This document shows, one piece after another, positions 31,691-44,738 of a DNA stretch of 64,000 nucleotides. Under the pieces are notes generated by a model, which searched no databases, was not told the DNA's origin, and was given only the letters and a program-made list of their open reading frames with translations. Source of the DNA: Actinomucor elegans (Eukaryota > Mucoromycota > Mucoromycetes > Mucorales > Mucoraceae); assembly GCA_026027325.1 (NCBI GenBank), contig JAMSLZ010000006.1, positions 186,001-250,000 of the forward strand. Reading direction: 5' to 3'. Position numbers and translations under genes: made by a program. Position 1 is the first letter of the stretch; every line of letters begins with the position of its first letter.

Positions 31691-34529
31691 TTAAGCATCA
31701 GCACTTGCTGTTAGAATACGAATAATACGCTTACGACCTTCACCAGACATGTTGATTACACCTTGATCTTGTAATGATTTCAAAATATCTTCAAATGTTC
31801 TGTTATCCACAGGCTATATAAAACTATAGTTAGAACAATATACACTTCAAGAATACTAATTTAGCTTACCACTTGACTTTGTTCGTTAAAGTCTTTGAAT
31901 AATTTGGCATAATCAACACGATTGTTTGCATAAGATGATAATTTGGAGAGTAATGCTTCCTTGATACTATTTTGAAGACTACGCTCATGGGAAGCAGTAC
32001 CAGACAAAATGAGATCCATATCAATACGGCCAGTCTTGGGATCTGTAGCGTATTCCTTGATAGCTTCACGCAAAAGTCGAGATGCTTCATTCACATCTAA
32101 AACCTCGACAGTAGGTGACATTCTCATTCTAGCATGTGCTTCAGACATACGGATCATGGATTCCAATTGACGGGTTGTGGCTGTCACACGCTTCTCTGAT
32201 CCACCACGGTCTTGGCCTTGTTTACGCAATTCAACATAATAATCTACCAACTTGGATCCAGCTTCTTCGCTTAATACAGGCTGTATCTTTTCTCTAGCAT
32301 AATTGATATACTTTGTCAAGAGTTCAACACTCACAATATCGTTACCACCGGTTAATGGGTTATCTTCCATATAAAGTGCTACTAAATGTTTAGCAAGACG
32401 GCGATCAGAGTCTTCATCCACACGATCCAGAATCAAATACAATAAATCAAATCTTGATAAGAGAGGAGGAGGTAGATCAAGATTGGCAGGGACTGAGAGG
32501 TTTTTGTTCCACCTTGAGCCGATAGGATTGGCAGAGGCACAAATCGATGTTCTAGCATTTAATGTAGTAATAATACCAGCTTTAGCAACAGAGATTGTTT
32601 GCTGCTCCATCACTTCATGCAAGACAGATCTTGTAGCGTCAGACATTTTATCAAATTCATCAATACAACACACACCACCATCACTCAATACAAGTGCACC
32701 ACTTTCCAGTACCAATTGACGGGAATCAGGATCTCTGGTAATATAGGCAGTAAGACCTACAGCAGAAGAACCCTTACCGGAAGTGTAGACACCACGAGGT
32801 GCAATCTTGTGAACATATTGAAGTAATTGAGATTTACTAGTACCTGGATCACCCACAAGCAAGACATTGATATCGCCTCTGAAGTGAGGTGCACCCGATT
32901 TTTTGAATGTTTTATGAGTACCACCAAATAATTGCAACAAGATACCCTTCTTCACATCGTCTAATTCGTAAATACTGGGGGCGAGCGAACGTGCTAATGT
33001 CTCGTACAAGTTGGAACGTTGCTTCAAAGCCAAAATTTCTTCTTCGTCTGTAGTTGTAACCACTTCAATTTCATCACCTTCCTCATAGCTATTAAATTGT
33101 TAGTATCGTTCCTAGACGCTATACTCTATCATTACTTACGCCTCAGGGCCAAATTCAGATCTGAATGATTTATCGATTTGCATACGTTTCTTATCTGTAC
33201 GCTTAATATGAACAACATCCAAATAGGTTCTAAACAAGGCACGGATCGTTCTTTGCTTGGGATTAACTCTGACAGGAACACCACGGAAAATACCAGTGAC
33301 CTCCAAACGATCACCGGGCTTTCCAATATCGACTAAATCATCATATAAACACATAGTAACTGTCTGAGGCGTTTGACCGTCAGGTACGACATCTGGTGTC
33401 TCTTGAATTCTAGCTACTTGTTTATCAGAAAATGCACAACGGTTATGTACCAAAGTCATTGAATTTTCAGAGTCGCAAGATTCTCTTCCACAACGAGTAG
33501 GTTCCAAAATTCTACCACGATCAACGCTTACAGTGACAGTATAATCACAAATCAAACAACGGAAGAACGCTTCTTTCATGTCAGGGATAATAGGTGAAGC
33601 ACGAATCATTAAACCTTTGATGGTGATAAGCTGATCAACGTCTACAAGAACAAGGTGAGTCTGTGAGTGTATACTAGGAAAGAAAGATCCTTACTCTGAG
33701 GATCCAATTCTCTCATATTCACAGCATTGGACAAGTTGAAAGGACGAACCTAATAGCCGTATTAACTAACCAAGTTTTCAAAGAAAGCCTTTGAACATAC
33801 CTTGAGCTGTAATCCGTTAAAATCCTCTGTTGGGAATTGACTCAAATAGAATTCAGTGATTGTATGATCCATCAAAGGAATGATTTCTTGAGGATACTTG
33901 ACCAATTGATCATAGAGTTTATGTGTTTCTGGATAAGCCTTCAAATTACGGCAATCCAAATTAACACTGGTAGCATTTTTGTCGTAAACATGCGTCAACA
34001 ATAAAGGATAGAAAGGTCTTTTGTCCTCTTCTGTGATAGCTTCGTTGAATTTACGTTTGCGATGTGCCAAGGTAAAGTTATTGAGAAAGTTGCGGAAACT
34101 GGTCATGGCTTCATGGATATTGACTGTAGTACCCCAAATAAGACGGACAGAAAGAGAAGGGTCACTTTCTTGTGTATCCATGTTCTGCAAAGAAGAAAGA
34201 CGATTGCCGGTAGGTGTTTGAGGTACATAAGGCGTACGTACAAATGTAGTATTGGTACGAGGAGTACGAGGTGAGTTGAAACTATCCAATCCTGAACGCA
34301 AAGGTGTAGAAGGATAAGCTAAAGGTGAGGTAGCACCAATATCATCTCCTAATAACGTAGAAGATAACTCTGAACGTCTATTGCGCATACGTGATGGCGA
34401 ACCAGGTGTACGAGCATGATATCCAGGTGAGCTGGGCTCAAGTTGAGAGGAAAGAATTTCAGAGCGACGAGGATAATAGCGGCCTGGTGTATCAGGTATA
34501 ATGTCGGATGGTGGATTATGGCTACTCAT
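31691..34529 (-). CDS. MCM4: DNA replication licensing factor Mcm4
   Basis: A subunit of the Mcm2-7 replicative helicase. Starts MSSHNPPSDIIPDTPGRYYP; the first 150 residues are a Ser/Thr-Pro-rich tail with many SP/TP sites, as in other Mcm4 proteins where CDK and DDK act. Next come the N-terminal domain with a zinc-binding region (FRCLICDYTVTV, EPTRCGRESC) and OB-fold blocks (VRPFNLSNAVNMRELDPQ, FSDKQVARIQETPD, GDRLEVTGIF). The AAA+ core has Walker A (GDPGTSKSQLLQYVHKIAPR), Walker B (CCIDEFDKM), the arginine finger (LSRFDLLYL), and a winged-helix C-terminus ending RIIRILTASADA. At least five introns, 5' biased; the long exon 31869-33063 carries the helicase. An ACGCGT box lies 53-58 bp upstream. 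Confidence 0.97.
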
Positions 34530-34581
34530 GTTACTACGTGTAAAGAACTCGAGAAAAGGGAAACGAAAAAATTGTTTAGAG

Positions 34582-34587
34582 ACGCGT
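34582..34587. promoter_or_regulatory. ACGCGT (MCB-like) site upstream of Mcm4
   Basis: ACGCGT about 53-58 bp before the Mcm4 start, inside the stretch GAGACGCGTTAACG. In yeasts the MBF complex uses this box to time G1/S genes, including MCM genes, so the context fits; binding is inferred. Confidence 0.45.
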
Positions 34588-35537
34588 TAACGTGTTTTTC
34601 CAGATTGCCTTGTGGCTTATGTGGGTGGATCTGTGTTTGATTTCCTACCTGCTGACGCCTAAACTGATTGCATCAAGGCTTCTTTCATATAAAAGTGTCC
34701 ATACACATAAAATCCAGTAAAAGAGCTAATACAGAGCTCGAAAGCCTCAAATGAGTTGAATACCATGTTATATTTCCTTTTAAAACCACAGAGTTTTCCA
34801 CATAAGGTATTGATATATGCTTGACTTGGTTTTTCGTCATCGTTCAAATTTTCATACGTAAAAAGAACACATTAAAAAATATGAATGCATGCTATAAAAT
34901 ACATCGAAAATATCTATATTATAATCATTCCTTTAAAATGGTATTTATACCATTAAAAAAGAAGGATGTAAGGATACAACTTTGCAATTTTTCTGGATTT
35001 TTACTGGATGTCGGGGATTGCACTAATGATTTCTTCAAGAGTTGCTCAGAATCCTTAACTACTATTACAGCTGAAGGATAGTCCTCGCTCAGGCTTAACA
35101 GCTATATATACTAGAATTTTGATTCAATAAGGCACAATAAATCTACTGTACATTAATAACTGACTGTGAATCGCATTTAATTTGTATTAGTAGAATTATA
35201 AAATTATAGATCATTCATCTGATCAGTAGATCTCAATTCGATGTATATTAATTGTAAGATGTTAATGTTGGAGTGCACGCAGTCATTATAGCTGAAAACA
35301 ATATTAAAAAAAAATGCATGTAATTAATCGATATACTTGTTGTTAAATTAATGCAAGAATAAAGCTGCGTTTATTTGAGTATGTAACAATAATTTGGAAA
35401 TGTAGATGCATGGGGAATCCGTTAATTCATACTAGTCTACGGTTATATAGTATATAGCTATAGAATTTGGTAGATTCTTGAAATTATTTCCTTATGCGAA
35501 CAAATATCAGTTGAAAGTATTAGTTGTATGTGTAGTA
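34588..35537. other. Intergenic left of the small secreted protein array
   Basis: A 62-codon minus-strand frame (34659-34847) is open but shows no domain or splice partner. The rest is AT-rich. Confidence 0.5.
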
Positions 35538-36088
35538 TTAATCAAAATGGACTGGCGTCATCATGGGTCTGAAGCTTTCACGGTTGGGAGGCCAGCACAA
35601 TGCATAGTAATTCTTAAGTCCTCCATGAAATGACAGACCCGCGCCCGCATCACAAGCCAGGCGATAAACCATATCATGATGATCAGCTTCGGGAAACTTG
35701 AACCGAACCTGAGGATATCATGACAAGACCATCAATAAAAAAGATTGTATAATATCAAAATACCTAAAGTTCTTATTGACTTACAACAAAGATCATGCGT
35801 GCTCTACTCAATTGGGATGGATTACAATGCGAATTGCTATAATGACAACACTCTTTTGCACCATTGTGAAGCGTCTTCCGGAAAGCACTAGAATTTGTAA
35901 TGTATTAATTATCGACATTTTACTAAAGGCGAGCACAGCATTTACTTGTCGTTGCCCATAAGTGGCTCGTCGTATATATTAAAGAAAGCACCCTCGACCA
36001 AGTTATTGTATATGCAAAAAGCTTGAATTTGAATACAGAAAAGAAGGGTTACTACCAATGGTATGGCATAGTACGACAAGTATCGCAT
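35538..36088 (-). CDS. Small secreted cysteine-rich protein, copy 1
   Basis: Three exons (35946-36088, 35785-35887, 35538-35708) give 138 residues. A signal peptide is evident (MRYLSYYAIPLVVTLLFCIQ, cut near IQA). The mature protein has six conserved cysteines: FCIYN, KECCHYSN, HCNPSQ, LACDAG and ALCWPPN. The start at 36088 is preferred over the in-frame ATG at 36124 because copies 2 and 4 begin at the same place and a TATA box sits 58 bp before it. Introns are in phase 2 and phase 0 at the same codons as in the other copies. I cannot place the family. Its role may be at the cell surface, in defence or in interaction with other organisms; that is inference from secretion and tandem duplication only. 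Confidence 0.8.
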
Positions 36089-36145
36089 GATCGTATTCCA
36101 AACGTTAATATTGAATTTATTCATGGCAAATGTTCGTATATTTCG

Positions 36146-36156
36146 CTTTATATATA
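36146..36156 (-). promoter_or_regulatory. TATA box of secreted-protein copy 1
   Basis: TATATATAAAG on the minus strand, 58 bp before the chosen ATG and only 22 bp before the upstream ATG. It therefore also decides the start. Copy 2 has the identical element at 37660-37670. Confidence 0.6.
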
Positions 36157-37071
36157 GTAAAGGTGCTCTATGTTTTCATTGTGTATAAAATAGAAGTAAC
36201 ATCAATTATATTTCTTTGTTATTTGATCAGATTGCAAAAGAAAGCACCACGCAACATCTTTCTAATAAGACGTTACCGCTAAACGTATACCTATTAAACG
36301 GTACTAGCTGTATTTATGATTATCCGAACATTACAACCCCTCGTTATAATTTGATACTTTACCTTATTTTATTTTAGGCCATTAAGTCAGCATTTACTGT
36401 ACTTTTAAATTGCTTTAATACCATCAACAACCATATAAAAATAAATTGTCAACACTACGTCTCGTACTGATCTGGATTTATACAGTATCTGATAGGAAAT
36501 CCTTGCCCAAAAAGAACGAGTACTTTTACTAACTCTAAATTTTATCTACAGTACAATGAGTATATCATTTTTATTAATAACAAATAAAGAATTATAGATA
36601 TATTTATGTTATAATATTTAATCATGCTAAAATATCTTGGGTAATTTCAGTCAAATGCCGCAAATGTTGAGAATAATATTCCTCTAATGTTCAAGTTCAA
36701 TTGCAAAATTTATAACCCCCGGAATGAACCAGTGAGAGAACTAGAGTACCGAGAAGTGGATATTAAAAGGAGTGAAAGAGTAAAGTCTTTAACCGGCTTC
36801 GTTACATAAGCATGCTATCCGAATAAAAAAAGAATATGATGTATATGTCTAGATAGTTACAAGTTAAAATAAATCTAGAGCTGCTCTTTACCATAGCTTA
36901 ATAAATGTATATGCTTTTTTTTTAATTGATCCCATCCACAATAATTACTTAAGTGTATACAAAAGCTTTTTATAGTCACTATGCATTAAACTGAGATTTA
37001 TTAGAATTTATTGTAACAATCAAGGACTTATTTTATTAAGTTTTATTTCAATTTTTTACCAGTTATTTAGG
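36157..37071. other. Intergenic between copies 1 and 2
   Basis: The part nearest copy 1 (to about 36280) resembles the region upstream of copy 2 and so belongs to the duplicated unit. The remainder is AT-rich with no gene. Confidence 0.5.
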
Positions 37072-37601
37072 TTAGTGTGGCATCAAACGAGTCCTAAAAC
37101 TAGGATGGCCATTGGGAGGCGTACACACTGCATAAAGATCTGAGAGTGTCCCATAAAATGCCAGAGCTCCACCTGCAGCGCAGCCTGCGCGATAAACTAG
37201 ACCAGGATGAGCTTGAGGGAATACAAACCGGACCTGTAGGTATCGAAGTAAAATTATAGATGAAAAGATTGTATAACGTCACGGTACGTGAAGATCATAT
37301 CGACTTACAACGAAGGATATAGCATCTATTTTTGATTGAGATGGGTTACAATCTTTATTGCTATAATGACAGCATTCCTTTGCGCCATTTTCAATTGACT
37401 TTCGGAAAGCACTATGGTTCGATATACATTAATCATATATCCATTTTTTAAAGAGTATAATAGTATTTACCTAGAAGAACCTCGTTCATCATGTATATTA
37501 AATTTACCTTCTTCTAAATAATTGTATATACAATATGCTTGGGTTTGAATACAGAAGAGAAGAACTGCTGGCAATAGTAACGTGTAAAAAAAGTATCGCA
37601 T
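37072..37601 (-). CDS. Small secreted cysteine-rich protein, copy 2
   Basis: Three exons (37471-37601, 37309-37411, 37072-37233) give 131 residues. Signal peptide MRYFFYTLLLPAVLLFCIQT is followed by the mature part: YCIYNYLEEGKFNIHDE, SAFRKSIENGAKECCHYSNK, DCNPSQ, FVVRFVFPQAH, AGCAAGGALAFYGTLS and YAVCTPPN. All six cysteines are kept. Exon 2 has the same length (103 nt) as in copy 1, and both introns are at the same codons. It is the best match to copy 1 and probably the best member for defining the family. Function unknown. Confidence 0.82.
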
Positions 37602-37659
37602 GATTGTACGGAAGTTACTATGTATCCAACTTATATACTGCAAACACTCATATAACTAA

Positions 37660-37670
37660 CTTTATATATA
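37660..37670 (-). promoter_or_regulatory. TATA box of secreted-protein copy 2
   Basis: TATATATAAAG on the minus strand, 59 bp before the ATG, matching copy 1 in sequence and distance. Confidence 0.6.
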
Positions 37671-38300
37671 ACAAAAGTGCTTTTTGTTTTCATTATTCAT
37701 GGAATCAAAGTATTAATAATCATATTTCTTTATTAATTGATTAAGCTGTGAAAGAAAACACAATACAGCACATCCTAACCAGTTGTTGACATTAAGTTTT
37801 AGTGTGTCGAGTCGCATCACTTGTTTTTAAAATGAACAGAGTTTATAAATCTATAAACCTCTCGACTGGTCTCGGTTTAATATCATATCTGACAAGTATT
37901 CTATGCTCAGAATAAGCCACTACATCTAGTGTAGCATTTACTTAACCGTAATACGAATAGTATATTACTCGATCTAATAGAGTTCGGCTCAATTGACAAC
38001 AGTTGTAAAAAGCTTAGTTTATCTGTACCTTGTGTAAGTATAGTATATCAGATCAATAGAAACAAAGAGAATACATAATTAATGCATTAATCAAACTATA
38101 GTATAAAAGTAATCTCCCGTTTATTTGAACTTGTGATAGTCTAGGAATGTAGACACAAAGACACACAATCAATTCATATCAGTGCGCTGTAACATAATAC
38201 ATATCTGGGCGAGATGCTTTTTATTAGGAAATTGTCATCTCTATATACGATTTAAAACACTTTGGGGTTATGCATAAATATCATTTGGTTGGTAATGAGA
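37671..38300. other. Intergenic between copies 2 and 3
   Basis: Upstream region of copy 2 (duplicated promoter unit to about 37790) followed by a dispersed-repeat copy (about 37861-37932). No gene. Confidence 0.5.
37861..37932 (+). repeat. Dispersed short repeat, copy f
   Basis: CTCGACTGGTCTCGGTTTAA, ATATCATATCTGACAAGTAT, TCTATGCTCAGAATAAGCCA and CTACATCTAGT: the full block order of the family. Confidence 0.5.
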
Positions 38301-38816
38301 TCAGATGGGCCGGAAATTTTCGATGGCATAGAAATTTGAAAGCGACACATAAAATCCCAAAGCCTCACTCACAGTACATTCCATATAGTAAGCTAAAGCG
38401 GAGCGAGATTCAGAAAACTTGAACCGTGCTTGTGAATACCAAGGTAATTTAAGATTGTTAATTTAAGGTTGTATAATGTTCAATAAGCCTCAAGACCATA
38501 TCAGCTTACAGCGAAAAATACATGTTCTGTTTTCAATTGAGATGGATTGGAGTCTTTATTATTGCAATAATAGTATTCTTTTTCGCCAACATGTGTTGGC
38601 TTTTGGAAAGCTCTATGGTTTTTTTTCATGTACCATTATAGATCGCGCCCTTAAAAAAACAACTATAGCGTTTACCTATCATTTTCAAGGCCTTTGCCAT
38701 TGTACATACTAAAAAACACTTTGGTCTAAAGTATGGTATACACAAAAGACTTGAAGATTGATGCAGAAAAGAAAGATTGAAACCAAGAGCATAGAGTAAT
38801 AGGAAAAGTATTGTAT
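38301..38816 (-). pseudogene. Small secreted cysteine-rich protein, copy 3 (decayed)
   Basis: Collinear with copies 1, 2 and 4 over all three exons, but dead. The start codon is ATA (38814-38816) where the others have ATG. Exon 1 runs into TAG and TGA stops after the signal peptide and CVYHTLDQSVF. In exon 2 the paired cysteines are Tyr-Tyr (KEYYYCNNKDSNPSQ) and the next Cys is Ser. Exon 3 keeps ARFKFSESRS and LGFYVSLSNFYA but has lost the final Cys. The start loss and both CC changes are G-to-A transitions; other changes are not, so mutation bias of the RIP kind is not supported. Confidence 0.8.
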
Positions 38817-39216
38817 GATCGTTTCTGAGGCGTTATTATTTATCTAATTTATTTACTGCAAATTCTTATTGCTTATAACAGGAATGCTCTTTTTTTTTCA
38901 ATATGTACAAAGCTAGGGAGTGACAATGAAAAGCGCCACATAGCTTTAACAGGACGTTAGCATTAAATTTTTATGTATTAAGTCGTATCGTCTGCTTTTC
39001 TTTGTTGCCATCCGAAAGAAAGGTAAAGTTGAGGCGATTTTACTGATTTTTATACTAACGTTATTCCTGCTGATATTCTTATCAGTCTAAAGGACATACG
39101 GAGTTATATTGTGTGCTTAGCCAGCTTTCAATTTGGTAGATAGTATCCAAGGTATCGAAAAGTTTTTGCGAAATTCTTATGGTAGCAAATACTAACGTTA
39201 AGCTCTAGTAACTCGA
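38817..39216. other. Intergenic between copy 3 and the LINE remnant
   Basis: Contains the decayed promoter of copy 3 (a TTATAAG-like element near 38873-38880 and a T-run) and no gene. Confidence 0.5.
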
Positions 39217-39576
39217 TCACCCAGGAAGCATCTTTTTGATATTCAGTAAAAAAGTTTTAGACTTGTTTATGTTGAATTTTTCGCTGAAAGCGGCTTCATA
39301 TTGCTGTATATAAACCTGTAGGGATTGGAAACTGTTTTGGACTTGTAACAGTACACATATATCATCAGTGTAAGCAAGGAATATGAGACTAGGTTTATTG
39401 TCTTCTAACAGAATTGAAAGAGACATATATCCTCTGAGCTGCTGATCTAGGAGAAGAGAAATGAAGAAAGGTTCCAATGCAGGATTAGACATTAAAGGTG
39501 ACAGTGGATTACCTTGACTTAGACTTCTTTCTTGACTGAGGTCTTGCTGTATCGTATAATACAGACAAGAATTCAC
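39217..39576 (-). mobile_element. LINE-type reverse transcriptase fragment
   Basis: A 119-residue frame matches the palm of non-LTR reverse transcriptases: SQGNPLSPLMSNPALEPFF (the usual QGDPLSPLLFNLALEPL block), then LIFLAYTDDICVLL with YTDD in place of YADD, then a helix ending FNINKSKTFLL. Coding traces continue in shifted frames to about 39650, with stops. The ends, endonuclease and tail are missing, so this is a dead fragment. It lies between copies 3 and 4 of the secreted-protein array, on the same strand. Confidence 0.8.
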
Positions 39577-39700
39577 CTAGCAAAATTCATATGAAGATTA
39601 TACACGAAATCAGTCAGCTTCTCTTGCAGGCTAATATTTTCCTTATTTTCTGTGTAGTACTGGGTGGATTTTTAGTAGTAATATTGTCACTATGAGTTTA

Positions 39701-40236
39701 TTATATTATCAAAGGAGCATCGTAGCTTGGGCCGTCGGGAGGTGAACATATCCCGTAATAATGGCTAGATGATCCATAAAGTGCCAAGGATCCTCCTGCG
39801 GGACAGCCTATACCAAAAACTCGTGAAGGAGATTCATTGAACTTCAATTGGATCTGTACGTCATTTGAGATTAATATAAAACAATGTATCAAAGATGTAT
39901 TACATTCAAGTTACGGACTTACACCGAATATTTTTTCAGTTGTTTTGGATTGGGAAGGGTTGCATTGTTTATTTTGGTAATGACAGCATTCTTTTGCACC
40001 TTTATATTCAAGTTTCTTATGAAAAGCACTATAGTTTGGCACATAAGCAGCTATTAATAATGATGAACCATGTTTGTAAACTAGTACAGCACAACATACT
40101 AGGACTTGGCAACTGTAGAATCATATATAATGAAACTACCGCCATCGTCTAAGAAATTGTATATACAGAATGCTTGAATTCCTACACATAGATGAAGGAT
40201 TATTGCCAGGATAATCCTGTGGAGGAATAGTCGCAT
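39701..40236 (-). CDS. Small secreted cysteine-rich protein, copy 4
   Basis: Three exons (40100-40236, 39923-40028, 39701-39853) give 131 residues. Signal peptide MRLFLHRIILAIILHLCVGI, cut near IQA. The mature part has FCIYNFLDDGGSF, YAFHKKLEYKGAKECCHYQN, QCNPSQSK, a divergent FGIQLKFNESPS segment, GIGCPAGGSLALYGSSS and GICSPPDGP. The six cysteines are conserved although the rest has diverged more than copies 1 and 2. The first donor is GTATGT within CCTAGTATG, which avoids the apparent TAG. Exon 2 is 3 nt longer than in copies 1 and 2, adding one residue. Function unknown. Confidence 0.8.
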
Positions 40237-40309: not shown

Positions 40310-43156
40310 AAAATCAGACAACTAATATATATTCTTTGTCAATTTGATTGTGTCGTAAATGAAAACACTGTCAATCAAATATGAAAAAATTAATTACAGA
40401 ATGAATCCGTTGTTTGTACTGCATTTTCTCTTTATGATTGTTTAAAAAAGAAGGCATAACTCTATGGTTTTCTGAATAATATCGTTATTTGTTTTTCAAT
40501 ATCTATTATTGCTAGCCTCCGAAGTAGAGGTAGGAAGGAGTTGATGTACGACTCGTTCTAATTTAGCAATACTATCAGAAGAAGAAGAAGATATGGATAG
40601 TTAGTTTGACATCAGCCTAGTAATTATGTACCGCTTTGTTCTCCTAAAACATATATATTATTATGCATCTGATTTCCATTGCATGCGTGTTATTTTTTAA
40701 CTTACTCATGATTTGTTTTAAAAGTAAAATCTCTAACCAGATAAATGCTTGGTTTTCTGAAAACGTATAGATAAATATGTGTTATATCAAATAAATCTAT
40801 TGTCTTTACATTACACCAGCTTCAGGCGGCGCTAAACAGGCTTAACAAAGCTTCATTTTATTGTTCACTTGTATAGCCGTGGGCTCTCTTGGTCAGTACG
40901 CGAGCTTCTTTACCATAGCAAAAGAAAAATAATAAAAATAAAATAAATAAAAGAAACACAAACTTTGAACAGCTGTTAATTGTGCCACGCTTAATTCTTG
41001 TTGTACTTTTCTGGCTTAATTATTAAACATGGTTTTCTTGCTTGCTATTATATTATAAAAATTATCAACGTAAATGTTCAACCATCAAAAACAAAGTTGC
41101 ATTGTTCTGCACTGTTTTAAATGCCGCCAAAAAGCATAGCAAAGATATATTATTATGCTACTGTCATTATAATCCTTATAGGTGATTGGTGTTTTGACAA
41201 GAAAGCTTTAGTTCACTCAGAGGCAGAAAATGTTTTTAGTTTGAACTATAATGATGCAAATGTTTTCAATATACAAAAAGTAGGTCAATGAAGTTTTGTA
41301 TAGAATTGAATCTAGTATCTAATAATGGTAGATGAAGAATAATATTATTCTTATATCATTCTTGCGGTATTTTATGTTATAATAAATTTCAGCCCTAAGT
41401 GTAAAGAAAAAAAAAAGAAAAAAAAATTACCCGTTTTAAACATCTCCACATTTTTCGACCAATTTTCAATTTGATGTCGCATTTGATGATTGCTACATAT
41501 CCAGAATGAAACCTTATATACTATTACTATTACTAGACTAGAATTCAAACAGGATTTTATACTTTAGAGTATGCGCTGTAAATTACATATATGATCATAG
41601 ATCTGTAGATCCTTTGGCCAATGTTGGTCAAATTTCCCATTAGGTAAATTCTATTTAGAAACATGGAATTGTTTCTACTTTAATGTCGAATATGATTAGT
41701 ATTGTATGCTCATTAAAGTGGGCTGCTACATCTACTACAGCATCAAATGTGTTTCCTGAGGACTTGTTCAAAAGGAAAAATGGATCTATTTATTACTCCT
41801 CTCCTCTTGAATAAATAATCTCTGGATATATCCTTATTTGCTTGCAGAAGGCGTGCATTTATTAAACGATCGCTTTTTTTTAAATGCTTGAATAATCAAG
41901 TGGAAACTGGCTGATCAGTCTGAAGGACTAGGCAAACTAATTAGTCAAGCGGTCGCGCCCTTCAAAATGGAGCGATCCCTTTCGACTTAGTACCTGGAAA
42001 TGTGTAACCATTCCACAATGAGCGGAATAAACCGTAAAACAAGTTAGTCACAAGGTGCTTAATGTTCATTCATCCTCGGATAACTTTATTTTTATTTTAC
42101 TAAAGAAAAAACCGTATTTTGCAATGCTCGATCACCAGTATCCAATTTAACAATAATTGAGAGAGTGCCCTATTGGTTTGCCTAGAATGATTTAATATTC
42201 AAATATACAAGATATCTCTGCTATAGAAATGATGCATCATATACTAATGCGGTTTCACTTCTTTAGAGTTGCCGTTATCCATATTCATTCAAAGGGATTG
42301 AGTGTTCTGCAAACTGAAATTGATCTCAGTAACAACAAAAAAAAAGAGACCAAAGCGCTTATCTTACTTTGCAAATCGATCATAATTCGTCATTATATGA
42401 TATAATGCATACTAGGATGAACCGAGAATGTGTATATGCCTCATTGTAAAGTGTGTATATCGCGCTTTTTCTGTAAAATAAGCACATTATATTGAAAAGA
42501 TGTCCAGAGATAATTCCCTCGAGATATATACCTCGTCTTCACCTTTTATATAAAATGATCGAAACCTACCCTTTTGACAATTTTGCCTTTTGTTTCAGAT
42601 AAGAAACTTATCCTTATCAAGCTTGTACCTATAATAGGTATATGATTGGTTAAAGTAAAGTTTTGAAGCATGTAATCTATATATATAAAAAAAACTCGCC
42701 TGAATAAGCTGGCCGTGGAAAAAGGGATCCTCGTCTGTTTGACGGAGCACAGGCTTACGGGAAAACTCAATTCTGATGTAACATACACCTATTCTCGAAA
42801 ACTAAGACTCCATACATGATTAATTAGCACTCGAATGATCGAGGTCTGGCTAAAAGAAGAGCCTAGAAATCTTTTTTAAAAAAAGAAGCTTTGGCCAATT
42901 TATTAAAGACATTATCTTGGCTAGGCTGTGATTTCTGATACATCATCTTCATATGTGTTCTATCTGAACCAGTGACGAATGAGCGAAAAAAAAAGACAAA
43001 AGGTATTACTATAACAAGTATTTCTATGATCGGTATTTCAACAAGCTCAAGACGCTTAAAGCGTTTTTTTTTTCATATTTTGCGTTTTATCTCTTCTTTC
43101 CTCTATTTACAAACATATACGCAAATAGCACACTTACCTATATAGATATATAAAAA
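40310..43156. other. Gene-poor stretch
   Basis: No gene is supported. Two dispersed-repeat copies are present (about 41468-41513 and 41681-41739). The 80-codon minus frame near 42546-42788 has no domain. From about 43060 it becomes the CT-rich leader of the GATA gene. Confidence 0.55.
41681..41739 (+). repeat. Dispersed short repeat, copy g (partial)
   Basis: TAATGTCGAATATGATTAGT, ATTGTATGCTCATTAAAGTG and GGCTGCTACATCTAC keep the second half of the family block order. A shorter trace lies at about 41468-41513 (TTGATGTCGCATTTGATGAT, then CCAGAATGAAACC). Confidence 0.45.
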
Positions 43157-44738
43157 ATGTTACCAGAAACTAGAAGGAAACCATCTACATCGGCAACTAC
43201 TCGCATGGCAGACCAAGTATTGTCGTGTAGCCTATTCGATCAGCCAATGGAGAACTCTGCTGATCAAGCTGATAAAGACAAGAAAAAAGATCCATTATCA
43301 AGTCAAGTTTGGAGAATGTACACTAAGGCAAAAGATACTCTACCTAATGGCTCAAGACTAGAAAATCTGACTTGGCGTATGATGGCTATGACTTTAAAGA
43401 AGGATATATCGGACCCCACGGATTCGGCACCTGAAAAGAAAGATCCAGTTGTCTCTAAATCACCACCAATGGTATACCTTGAATTGCACGACACATCTTC
43501 ATCAAACCCTATTTACTTACTATTTGCCGTAGGTCATTCAAAACGAAGCAAAAACCAATAGCATCAATATTCCTGCCAATTTTAATGATGATCATAATGA
43601 ATGTACCGCTTCATTCTTGAATACGCCCTCCTATCATTCGCCTTCATCTACCTTTTTCTTTGGCAACGATCCTCCTACCACCACTACATCAAATAATATG
43701 GGAGCAATGAGTTTTGAAGATATGCTGGGCATATATTATAACCCTTCAGCTACAAACGATGGCCAAATGATAGACATGATTTCCTCTAGTGCGCCGTCCG
43801 TCCATACTTTTCATCAAACCCCATTCCAACAGCAAACGTATGCTGATTCTCCATCTTCCTCTGCTTCTTCTGTCGAAGAAGAATTACCTGCTGCCATTCC
43901 ATATACGCAAAAACAATCACAAAAACCTCAACAGAACGGTTTAACTGAATGCTCAAACTGTTCTACCAAAACTACACCATTATGGCGAAGAGACCCTGCA
44001 GGCAACCCACTTTGCAATGCCTGTGGCCTATTTCTGAAACTTCATGGCGTCGTTCGGCCACTTAGCTTGAAGACTGACGTGATCAAAAAGAGAAACAGAA
44101 ATGCTGGTGGAAATACAAACGGCGGAGCTCAACCTAAAAAAGAGCACCAACCCATACTATCTACTTCTCTTCCTAATACTACTCGTATTCAAGCTATACC
44201 TACCCGTCCTTCTCAATCTATAAGCAAGCGTCAGCGCCGCAGTTTTCAAGCTCAAAACGAACAATCGCTATCAAGCTCTGTACCAAATGCAGATCTTACT
44301 TTAGGAGCCAATATGTTTGGTAGCTCATTACCTTCTTCACTTCATACGCCTACTATCCATAATACCATGTCTTCATCCTATTTCAATTTCACACCCTCTT
44401 CTTCCATGATTTCTTCGTCACCACCGCCTCCGCCTGGTCTTGTACATTCATCATCAAATTCTTCATTAGCAAGTCTGAGTCACCATCCGGCTCAGCAGCA
44501 ACAAGGCGATGTCTATTCGATACTGGAAAATATCGGTGTCCAATTGAATAATCTACCGCCTGAATTACTGCCCTTGATTGCTTCTGCTGCTAATTATCAA
44601 GCAATAACTGCTCAGCAGCAAGCTGTGGTGAATAGTAAATCACCTGAAGAACTAATATATCTTCAACAGCAGCAGCAACATCAATCAACTAATACGAACG
44701 ATCTACCCTTGGATCATACTACTACACATTTTTTTTAA
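43157..44738 (+). CDS. GATA zinc-finger transcription factor, AreA/Nit2-like
   Basis: Two exons (43157-43471, 43533-44738), with a 61-nt intron, give 506 residues. Near residues 50-80 is the AreA-type N-terminal motif ([20 protein letters not shown], then [12 protein letters not shown]). The single fungal GATA finger follows near residue 250: [19 protein letters not shown] then [20 protein letters not shown], a CX2CX17CX2C layout, and a basic tail ([11 protein letters not shown]). The remainder is Ser/Gln/Pro-rich. AreA/Nit2/Gaf1 factors switch on genes for poor nitrogen sources, and the pairing of both domains supports that reading. The stop is 13 bp from the stop of the convergent Snapin-like gene. 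A CT-rich tract precedes the ATG. Confidence 0.9.

Follow-up and report, generated by a model that had tools for sequence, protein, structure and literature searches.

What are the four small cysteine-rich genes that lie side by side between positions 35538 and 40236 of this stretch of the Actinomucor elegans genome, and what might their products do? The window analysed here is the whole stretch of 64,000 nucleotides (C24:186001-250000 in our contig numbering), in which an earlier, sequence-only reading had described a tandem array of four related units. Searches of the whole genome (36.5 Mb, 27 contigs) and of protein databases showed that these genes belong to a real and maintained family whose copies arise, decay and exchange sequence, although this turnover is not shown to be fast. 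The family is new, and its broad kind, that of small secreted cysteine-rich proteins, is already known. As to function, we tentatively infer, as the likeliest reading, an extracellular binding protein used in contact with other organisms.

Gene structure of the four-unit array

Gene models built on the window sequence match exactly the coordinates given in the sequence-only reading and place all four units on the minus strand, which that reading had left unstated. All entries below are spliced models except copy 3, which was read frame by frame without joining its exons.

36088..35538, minus strand: copy 1, whole gene
35946..36088, minus strand: copy 1 exon 1, with start codon, signal peptide and first mature cysteine
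35785..35887, minus strand: copy 1 exon 2, with KECCHY and HCNPS
35538..35708, minus strand: copy 1 exon 3, with C-AG, C-PP and the stop codon
37601..37072, minus strand: copy 2, whole gene
37471..37601, minus strand: copy 2 exon 1
37309..37411, minus strand: copy 2 exon 2
37072..37233, minus strand: copy 2 exon 3
38816..38301, minus strand: copy 3, decayed relic
40236..39701, minus strand: copy 4, whole gene
40100..40236, minus strand: copy 4 exon 1
39923..40028, minus strand: copy 4 exon 2
39701..39853, minus strand: copy 4 exon 3

When spliced, copies 1, 2 and 4 are open three-exon genes of 138, 131 and 131 amino acids, in agreement with the proposal that they are intact. Each carries two GT-AG introns of 58-76 bases at the same codons, phase 2 followed by phase 0, the splice sites having been chosen by hand here as well as in the genomic paralogues. 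The mature proteins (115, 109 and 109 amino acids; 5.2, 5.5 and 5.5% cysteine) contain six cysteines each, in the order that had been read from the sequence, and have masses of 12.0-13.3 kDa and isoelectric points (pI) of 7.2-8.3. Copy 3 is decayed, as had been recognised: ATA stands at the site of the start codon, a stop codon lies within exon 1, and changes affect both the CC pair and the fourth cysteine. The relatedness of the four units is not due to chance, since the open copies find each other in tblastn searches with best E values of 4e-19 to 9e-30; for copy 3 the E values are 6e-10 against copy 2 and 1e-7 against copy 1.

The N-termini of copies 1, 2 and 4 show a hydrophobic stretch with an alanine at its end, resembling the signal peptide that the sequence-only reading had assigned to them. 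Mean hydropathy over 19 residues peaks at 0.7-1.1 in the mature parts, which lack any further strongly hydrophobic segment. On the basis of hydropathy and visual inspection, the array proteins are probably secreted.

A dispersed family under purifying selection

Searches with several members and with an upstream pattern, together with reading of the retrieved stretches, identified at least 15 dispersed loci of the family, at least 11 open and at least four decayed; these counts are lower bounds because the search scores only the best candidates.

Open loci: copies 1, 2 and 4; C6a and C6b; C23; C24 at 499 kb; C4; C5; C21a and C21b
Decayed loci: copy 3; C2 at 1349 kb; C22 at 1341 kb; C6 at 129 kb

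Mature masses across the open copies are about 12-14.5 kDa, and the phase 2 and phase 0 introns recur in 10 of the 11, C4 being without intron 1. The relic at C6 129 kb escaped the protein searches. In the C2 relic (C2:1349380-1349490) exon 1 has a frame break close to a stretch of T's, and the CC pair has one altered residue; decay is more likely than a sequencing error as the cause of this break.

Seven open copies (1, 2, 4, C6a, C6b, C23 and C24 at 499 kb) were compared pairwise by a simple counting method. Their synonymous divergence (dS) is 0.63-1.96, which is near saturation, and for the mature part every one of the 21 pairs has a ratio of nonsynonymous to synonymous divergence (dN/dS) below 1 (0.18-0.69). 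The copies are thus old and under net purifying selection, which does not support the description of the family as fast-turning. Birth and death of copies, proposed in the same reading, is borne out by the open and decayed loci. There is also a tract of exchange between C6a and C6b, which are identical over 106 bases upstream of the ATG and 87 bases from the ATG onwards.

C6:675467-675659 and C6:679273-679465 (L021 3468-3660 and 7274-7466): identical tracts of C6a and C6b

Because this tract is identical although the mature parts differ (dS 0.69), it reads as a recent exchange, resembling gene conversion, that took in the promoter and the signal-peptide exon; over the whole aligned 1.09 kb, tract included, identity is 74.7%.

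The same seven copies form a group of their own (support 100/98) in a tree of 33 proteins, for which a midpoint root was used and which has some long branches, and this sets them apart from the relatives found in databases. Within the group, copy 4 is sister to the C24 copy at 499 kb, which lies outside the array on the same contig (98/91); copy 1 joins these two rather than copy 2, with moderate support (96/76). The array is therefore not a simple set of recent neighbours born in one tandem burst.

Several copies also share upstream sequence. A 35-base, TATA-containing box ending in TATATATAAAG is common to copies 1, 2, C6a and C6b, where 57-60 bases separate it from the ATG.

36146..36180 (C24:222146-222180), minus strand: copy 1 proximal box with TATA element, 57 bases to the ATG
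37660..37694 (C24:223660-223694), minus strand: copy 2 proximal box, 58 bases to the ATG
36245..36275 (C24:222245-222275), minus strand: copy 1 distal box, common to both C6 copies, from a pattern search

With up to three mismatches, the 35-base pattern has exactly four matches in the 36.5 Mb, all upstream of open family genes, the pattern having been written from these same four copies; its reversed control has no genome match at the same threshold. The distal pattern, likewise derived from the copies, matches copy 1, C6a and C6b only. C23 carries a version of the proximal box that is one base shorter, and a search with it also matched the decayed C6 copy at 129 kb and one site on C12. The latter (C12:2987255-2987288, minus strand), a match with three mismatches to the 34-base pattern and with no known family copy nearby, is possibly due to chance. 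Upstream of copy 4, C24 at 499 kb, C4 and C5 the proximal box was not seen in this form. The shared boxes suggest, at the level of sequence, that some copies are under common control.

Are these genes only duplicate relics without a present role? The decay of 4 of 15 loci and the presence of a retroelement fragment inside the array would fit such an origin, but 11 copies are open, every pair among the seven compared has a dN/dS below 1, splice sites and upstream boxes are kept, and homologues occur across the order (see below). We therefore regard this explanation as very improbable. The fragment itself is a neighbour outside the secreted-protein family; its match to RVT_1 (28.7 bits) falls just below the cut-off of 29.6. 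The array is otherwise surrounded by recognisable housekeeping genes, with mannosyltransferase, Snapin/Pallidin and eIF3 zeta genes beyond the MCM4-type and AreA/GATA-type genes that flank it.

39220..39576, minus strand: reverse transcriptase fragment of a decayed retroelement between copies 3 and 4 (RVT_1, E 1.3e-6)
31861-34586, minus strand: flanking gene with MCM domains including an MCM4 one (domain scan)
43154-44738, plus strand: flanking gene with GATA and AreA-type domains (domain scan)

As a separate observation, a short stretch encoding an LDSM..DCE variant occurs at three places in the genome, none of them more than about 1.2 kb from a family copy, and a doubtful remnant lies at 35226-35267 of the window (E 0.67). 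Either a duplicated flanking sequence or a neighbouring gene that has been lost could account for it.

L021 8085-8249, minus strand: LDSM..DCE-variant stretch
L022 2032-2169, plus strand: LDSM..DCE-variant stretch
L029 1071-1244, plus strand: LDSM..DCE-variant stretch

Relatives in other Mucorales

Copy 2 alone found no match in the database search. A profile search, which the sequence-only reading had suggested as a way to find homologues, was productive: a profile of nine paralogues matched 17 proteins at E <=1, with E values down to 3.3e-27, a second profile matched 23, and both combined yielded 29 different proteins. The 23 with a species name come from 16 species, all in genera of the Mucorales; this placement was checked for Fennellomyces, Phascolomyces, Benjaminiella, Cokeromyces and Backusella, and the remaining genera we take to be Mucorales. 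All of these species-named homologues are labelled solely as hypothetical, uncharacterized or unnamed. A profile-profile comparison of the nine genomic paralogues with 19 database members gave E 1e-39, and the hypothetical Mucorales family and the array copies have in common a profile with C-x-Y-N, the CC pair and the fourth cysteine. Proteins of Thamnidium elegans (INT48_002919, P0002), Mucor ambiguus (MAM1_0007d00899, P0001) and Pilaira anomala resemble the array proteins in length, signal peptide, order of the six cysteines and core motifs; P0002 and copy 2 share 47% identity across 88% of copy 2. The Rhizopus delemar protein RO3G_09573 (P0011) appears in the database without signal peptide and first cysteine, which may reflect an error in the annotation of its start or first exon.

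Six of the 29 proteins carry no species name. Among them, P0006 is the C4 copy read unspliced, P0015 comes from JGI data and P0026 is a fragment of 49 residues, while P0027-P0029 are weak matches (E 2e-3 to 5e-2). The entries P0015 and P0027-P0029 derive from metagenomes or draft genomes. Comparison by hhalign with the profile of 19 Mucorales proteins gave probabilities of 99.5% for P0015 and 98.2% for P0027-P0029, which supports, on sequence grounds, their being relatives of the family. All four share the YC-YN motif, the G-KACC motif and the fourth cysteine; P0027-P0029 differ from the array copies in having 11-14 mature cysteines. P0027 and P0028 lie on contigs of equal length (39141), perhaps one and the same contig.

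Mature cysteines 1-4 are invariant in all 34 aligned proteins. Of these proteins, 14 also have cysteines 5 and 6, 18 have neither, and two have cysteine 5 alone; in the tree, the 14 that possess all six are found together on one side of a branch (support 98/94). We infer that cysteines 1-4 form two disulfides and cysteines 5 and 6 a third.

That no named family could be given for these proteins also held in the profile scans. Pfam returned no family at E <=10 for copies 1, 2 and 4, one family in two of the nine paralogues (best E 0.042), and six families with one protein each among 17 database members (best GON, E 0.0031, and DUF7282, E 0.007), none of them credible. Over all members scanned, Pfam and NCBIfam gave no credible family, the scattered best Pfam hits (E 0.0027-0.042) falling on one or two proteins each, and none of the 29 database proteins has a Pfam domain. 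No credible profile match places the proteins in any Pfam family, among which we take thaumatin, aegerolysin, hydrophobin, CFEM, cerato-platanin and S1 self-incompatibility proteins to be included. Hydrophobins are defined by an eight-cysteine pattern, which the six mature cysteines of copies 1, 2 and 4 do not fit. Our searches of open-licence full text in PMC turned up no account of the family.

Predicted fold, possible role and known protein classes

The structure predicted for P0002 is a nine-strand beta-sandwich (predicted local distance difference test score, pLDDT, 87.5; predicted template modelling score, pTM, 0.77). Against PDB this model has no distinctive match; its neighbours are similar beta-sandwiches, namely the PepT2 extracellular domain, the HGSNAT lumenal domain, domain 4 of cholesterol-dependent cytolysins, PUD-1 and transthyretin, with 2-12% sequence identity and ties between several unrelated families, so that no membership is implied. 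The Pfam scans matched no enzyme family and no known wall-binding domain. Each member would combine a signal peptide with a single beta-sandwich domain that two or three disulfides stabilise. The simplest reading of such a secreted sandwich, given that it lacks enzyme motifs, is a binding protein, whose target would be a glycan or protein at a surface and which would serve in contact with other organisms, above all competing microbes. Some similar beta-sandwiches bind small ligands or proteins, and for this reason we also considered a secreted protein that acts as an inhibitor, for instance of proteases, or that scavenges a ligand such as a small molecule; transthyretin and the PepT2 and HGSNAT domains among the structural neighbours are consistent with it, but we think it improbable.

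A role towards other organisms fits the birth, loss and exchange of copies, the common upstream boxes and the loops, which vary in length across the family. Under the binding-protein reading, the array would be the local part of an unnamed family, so far seen in Mucorales and in a few sources without species name; several copies with common boxes would probably be switched on together, and copy number and loop sequences would have been varied through duplication, exchange and loss. The weak charge of the proteins, the purifying selection and the wide presence of the family suit almost as well secreted, disulfide-bonded proteins of the cell wall, the spore surface or development (e.g., mating or the sporangium) that act on the fungus itself. 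Occurrence in 16 named species, purifying selection and common upstream boxes would fit a stage-specific structural protein just as much. Decayed copies, copy exchange and length-variable loops are less expected of a wall component, and no known wall-binding domain was matched; neither point is decisive, and we judge such a role unlikely but well worth keeping in mind. A bolder version of the binding-protein reading, in which Mucorales share a new secreted beta-sandwich family with other microbes, possibly by horizontal transfer, and use it against competitors as an order-wide arsenal, co-expressed via family-specific boxes and subject to gain, exchange and loss of copies at several loci, appears rather improbable.

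To our knowledge, few secreted protein families of early-diverging fungi have been characterised, and this one spans 16 named Mucorales species without a Pfam domain in any of its 29 database proteins. With its cysteine signature, a fold modelled with confidence and upstream boxes specific to the family, it could readily be included in annotation libraries and tested by expression and deletion in a laboratory strain of Mucor.

Among known classes, the closest is that of the small secreted cysteine-rich proteins (SSCP), which are described by a mature length of up to 300 amino acids, at least four cysteines, at least 5% cysteine, a signal peptide and no transmembrane domain (PMC4161775). Copies 1, 2 and 4 have the size and cysteine content given there, whereas their relatives C5, C21a and C21b have less than 5% cysteine; SSCP is a class of size and cysteine content, not of common descent. 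Antifungal proteins of the AFP type are of low mass, cationic and high in cysteine (PMC3197501). The array copies combine 12.0-13.3 kDa with a pI of 7.2-8.3, 5.2-5.5% cysteine and no Pfam match.
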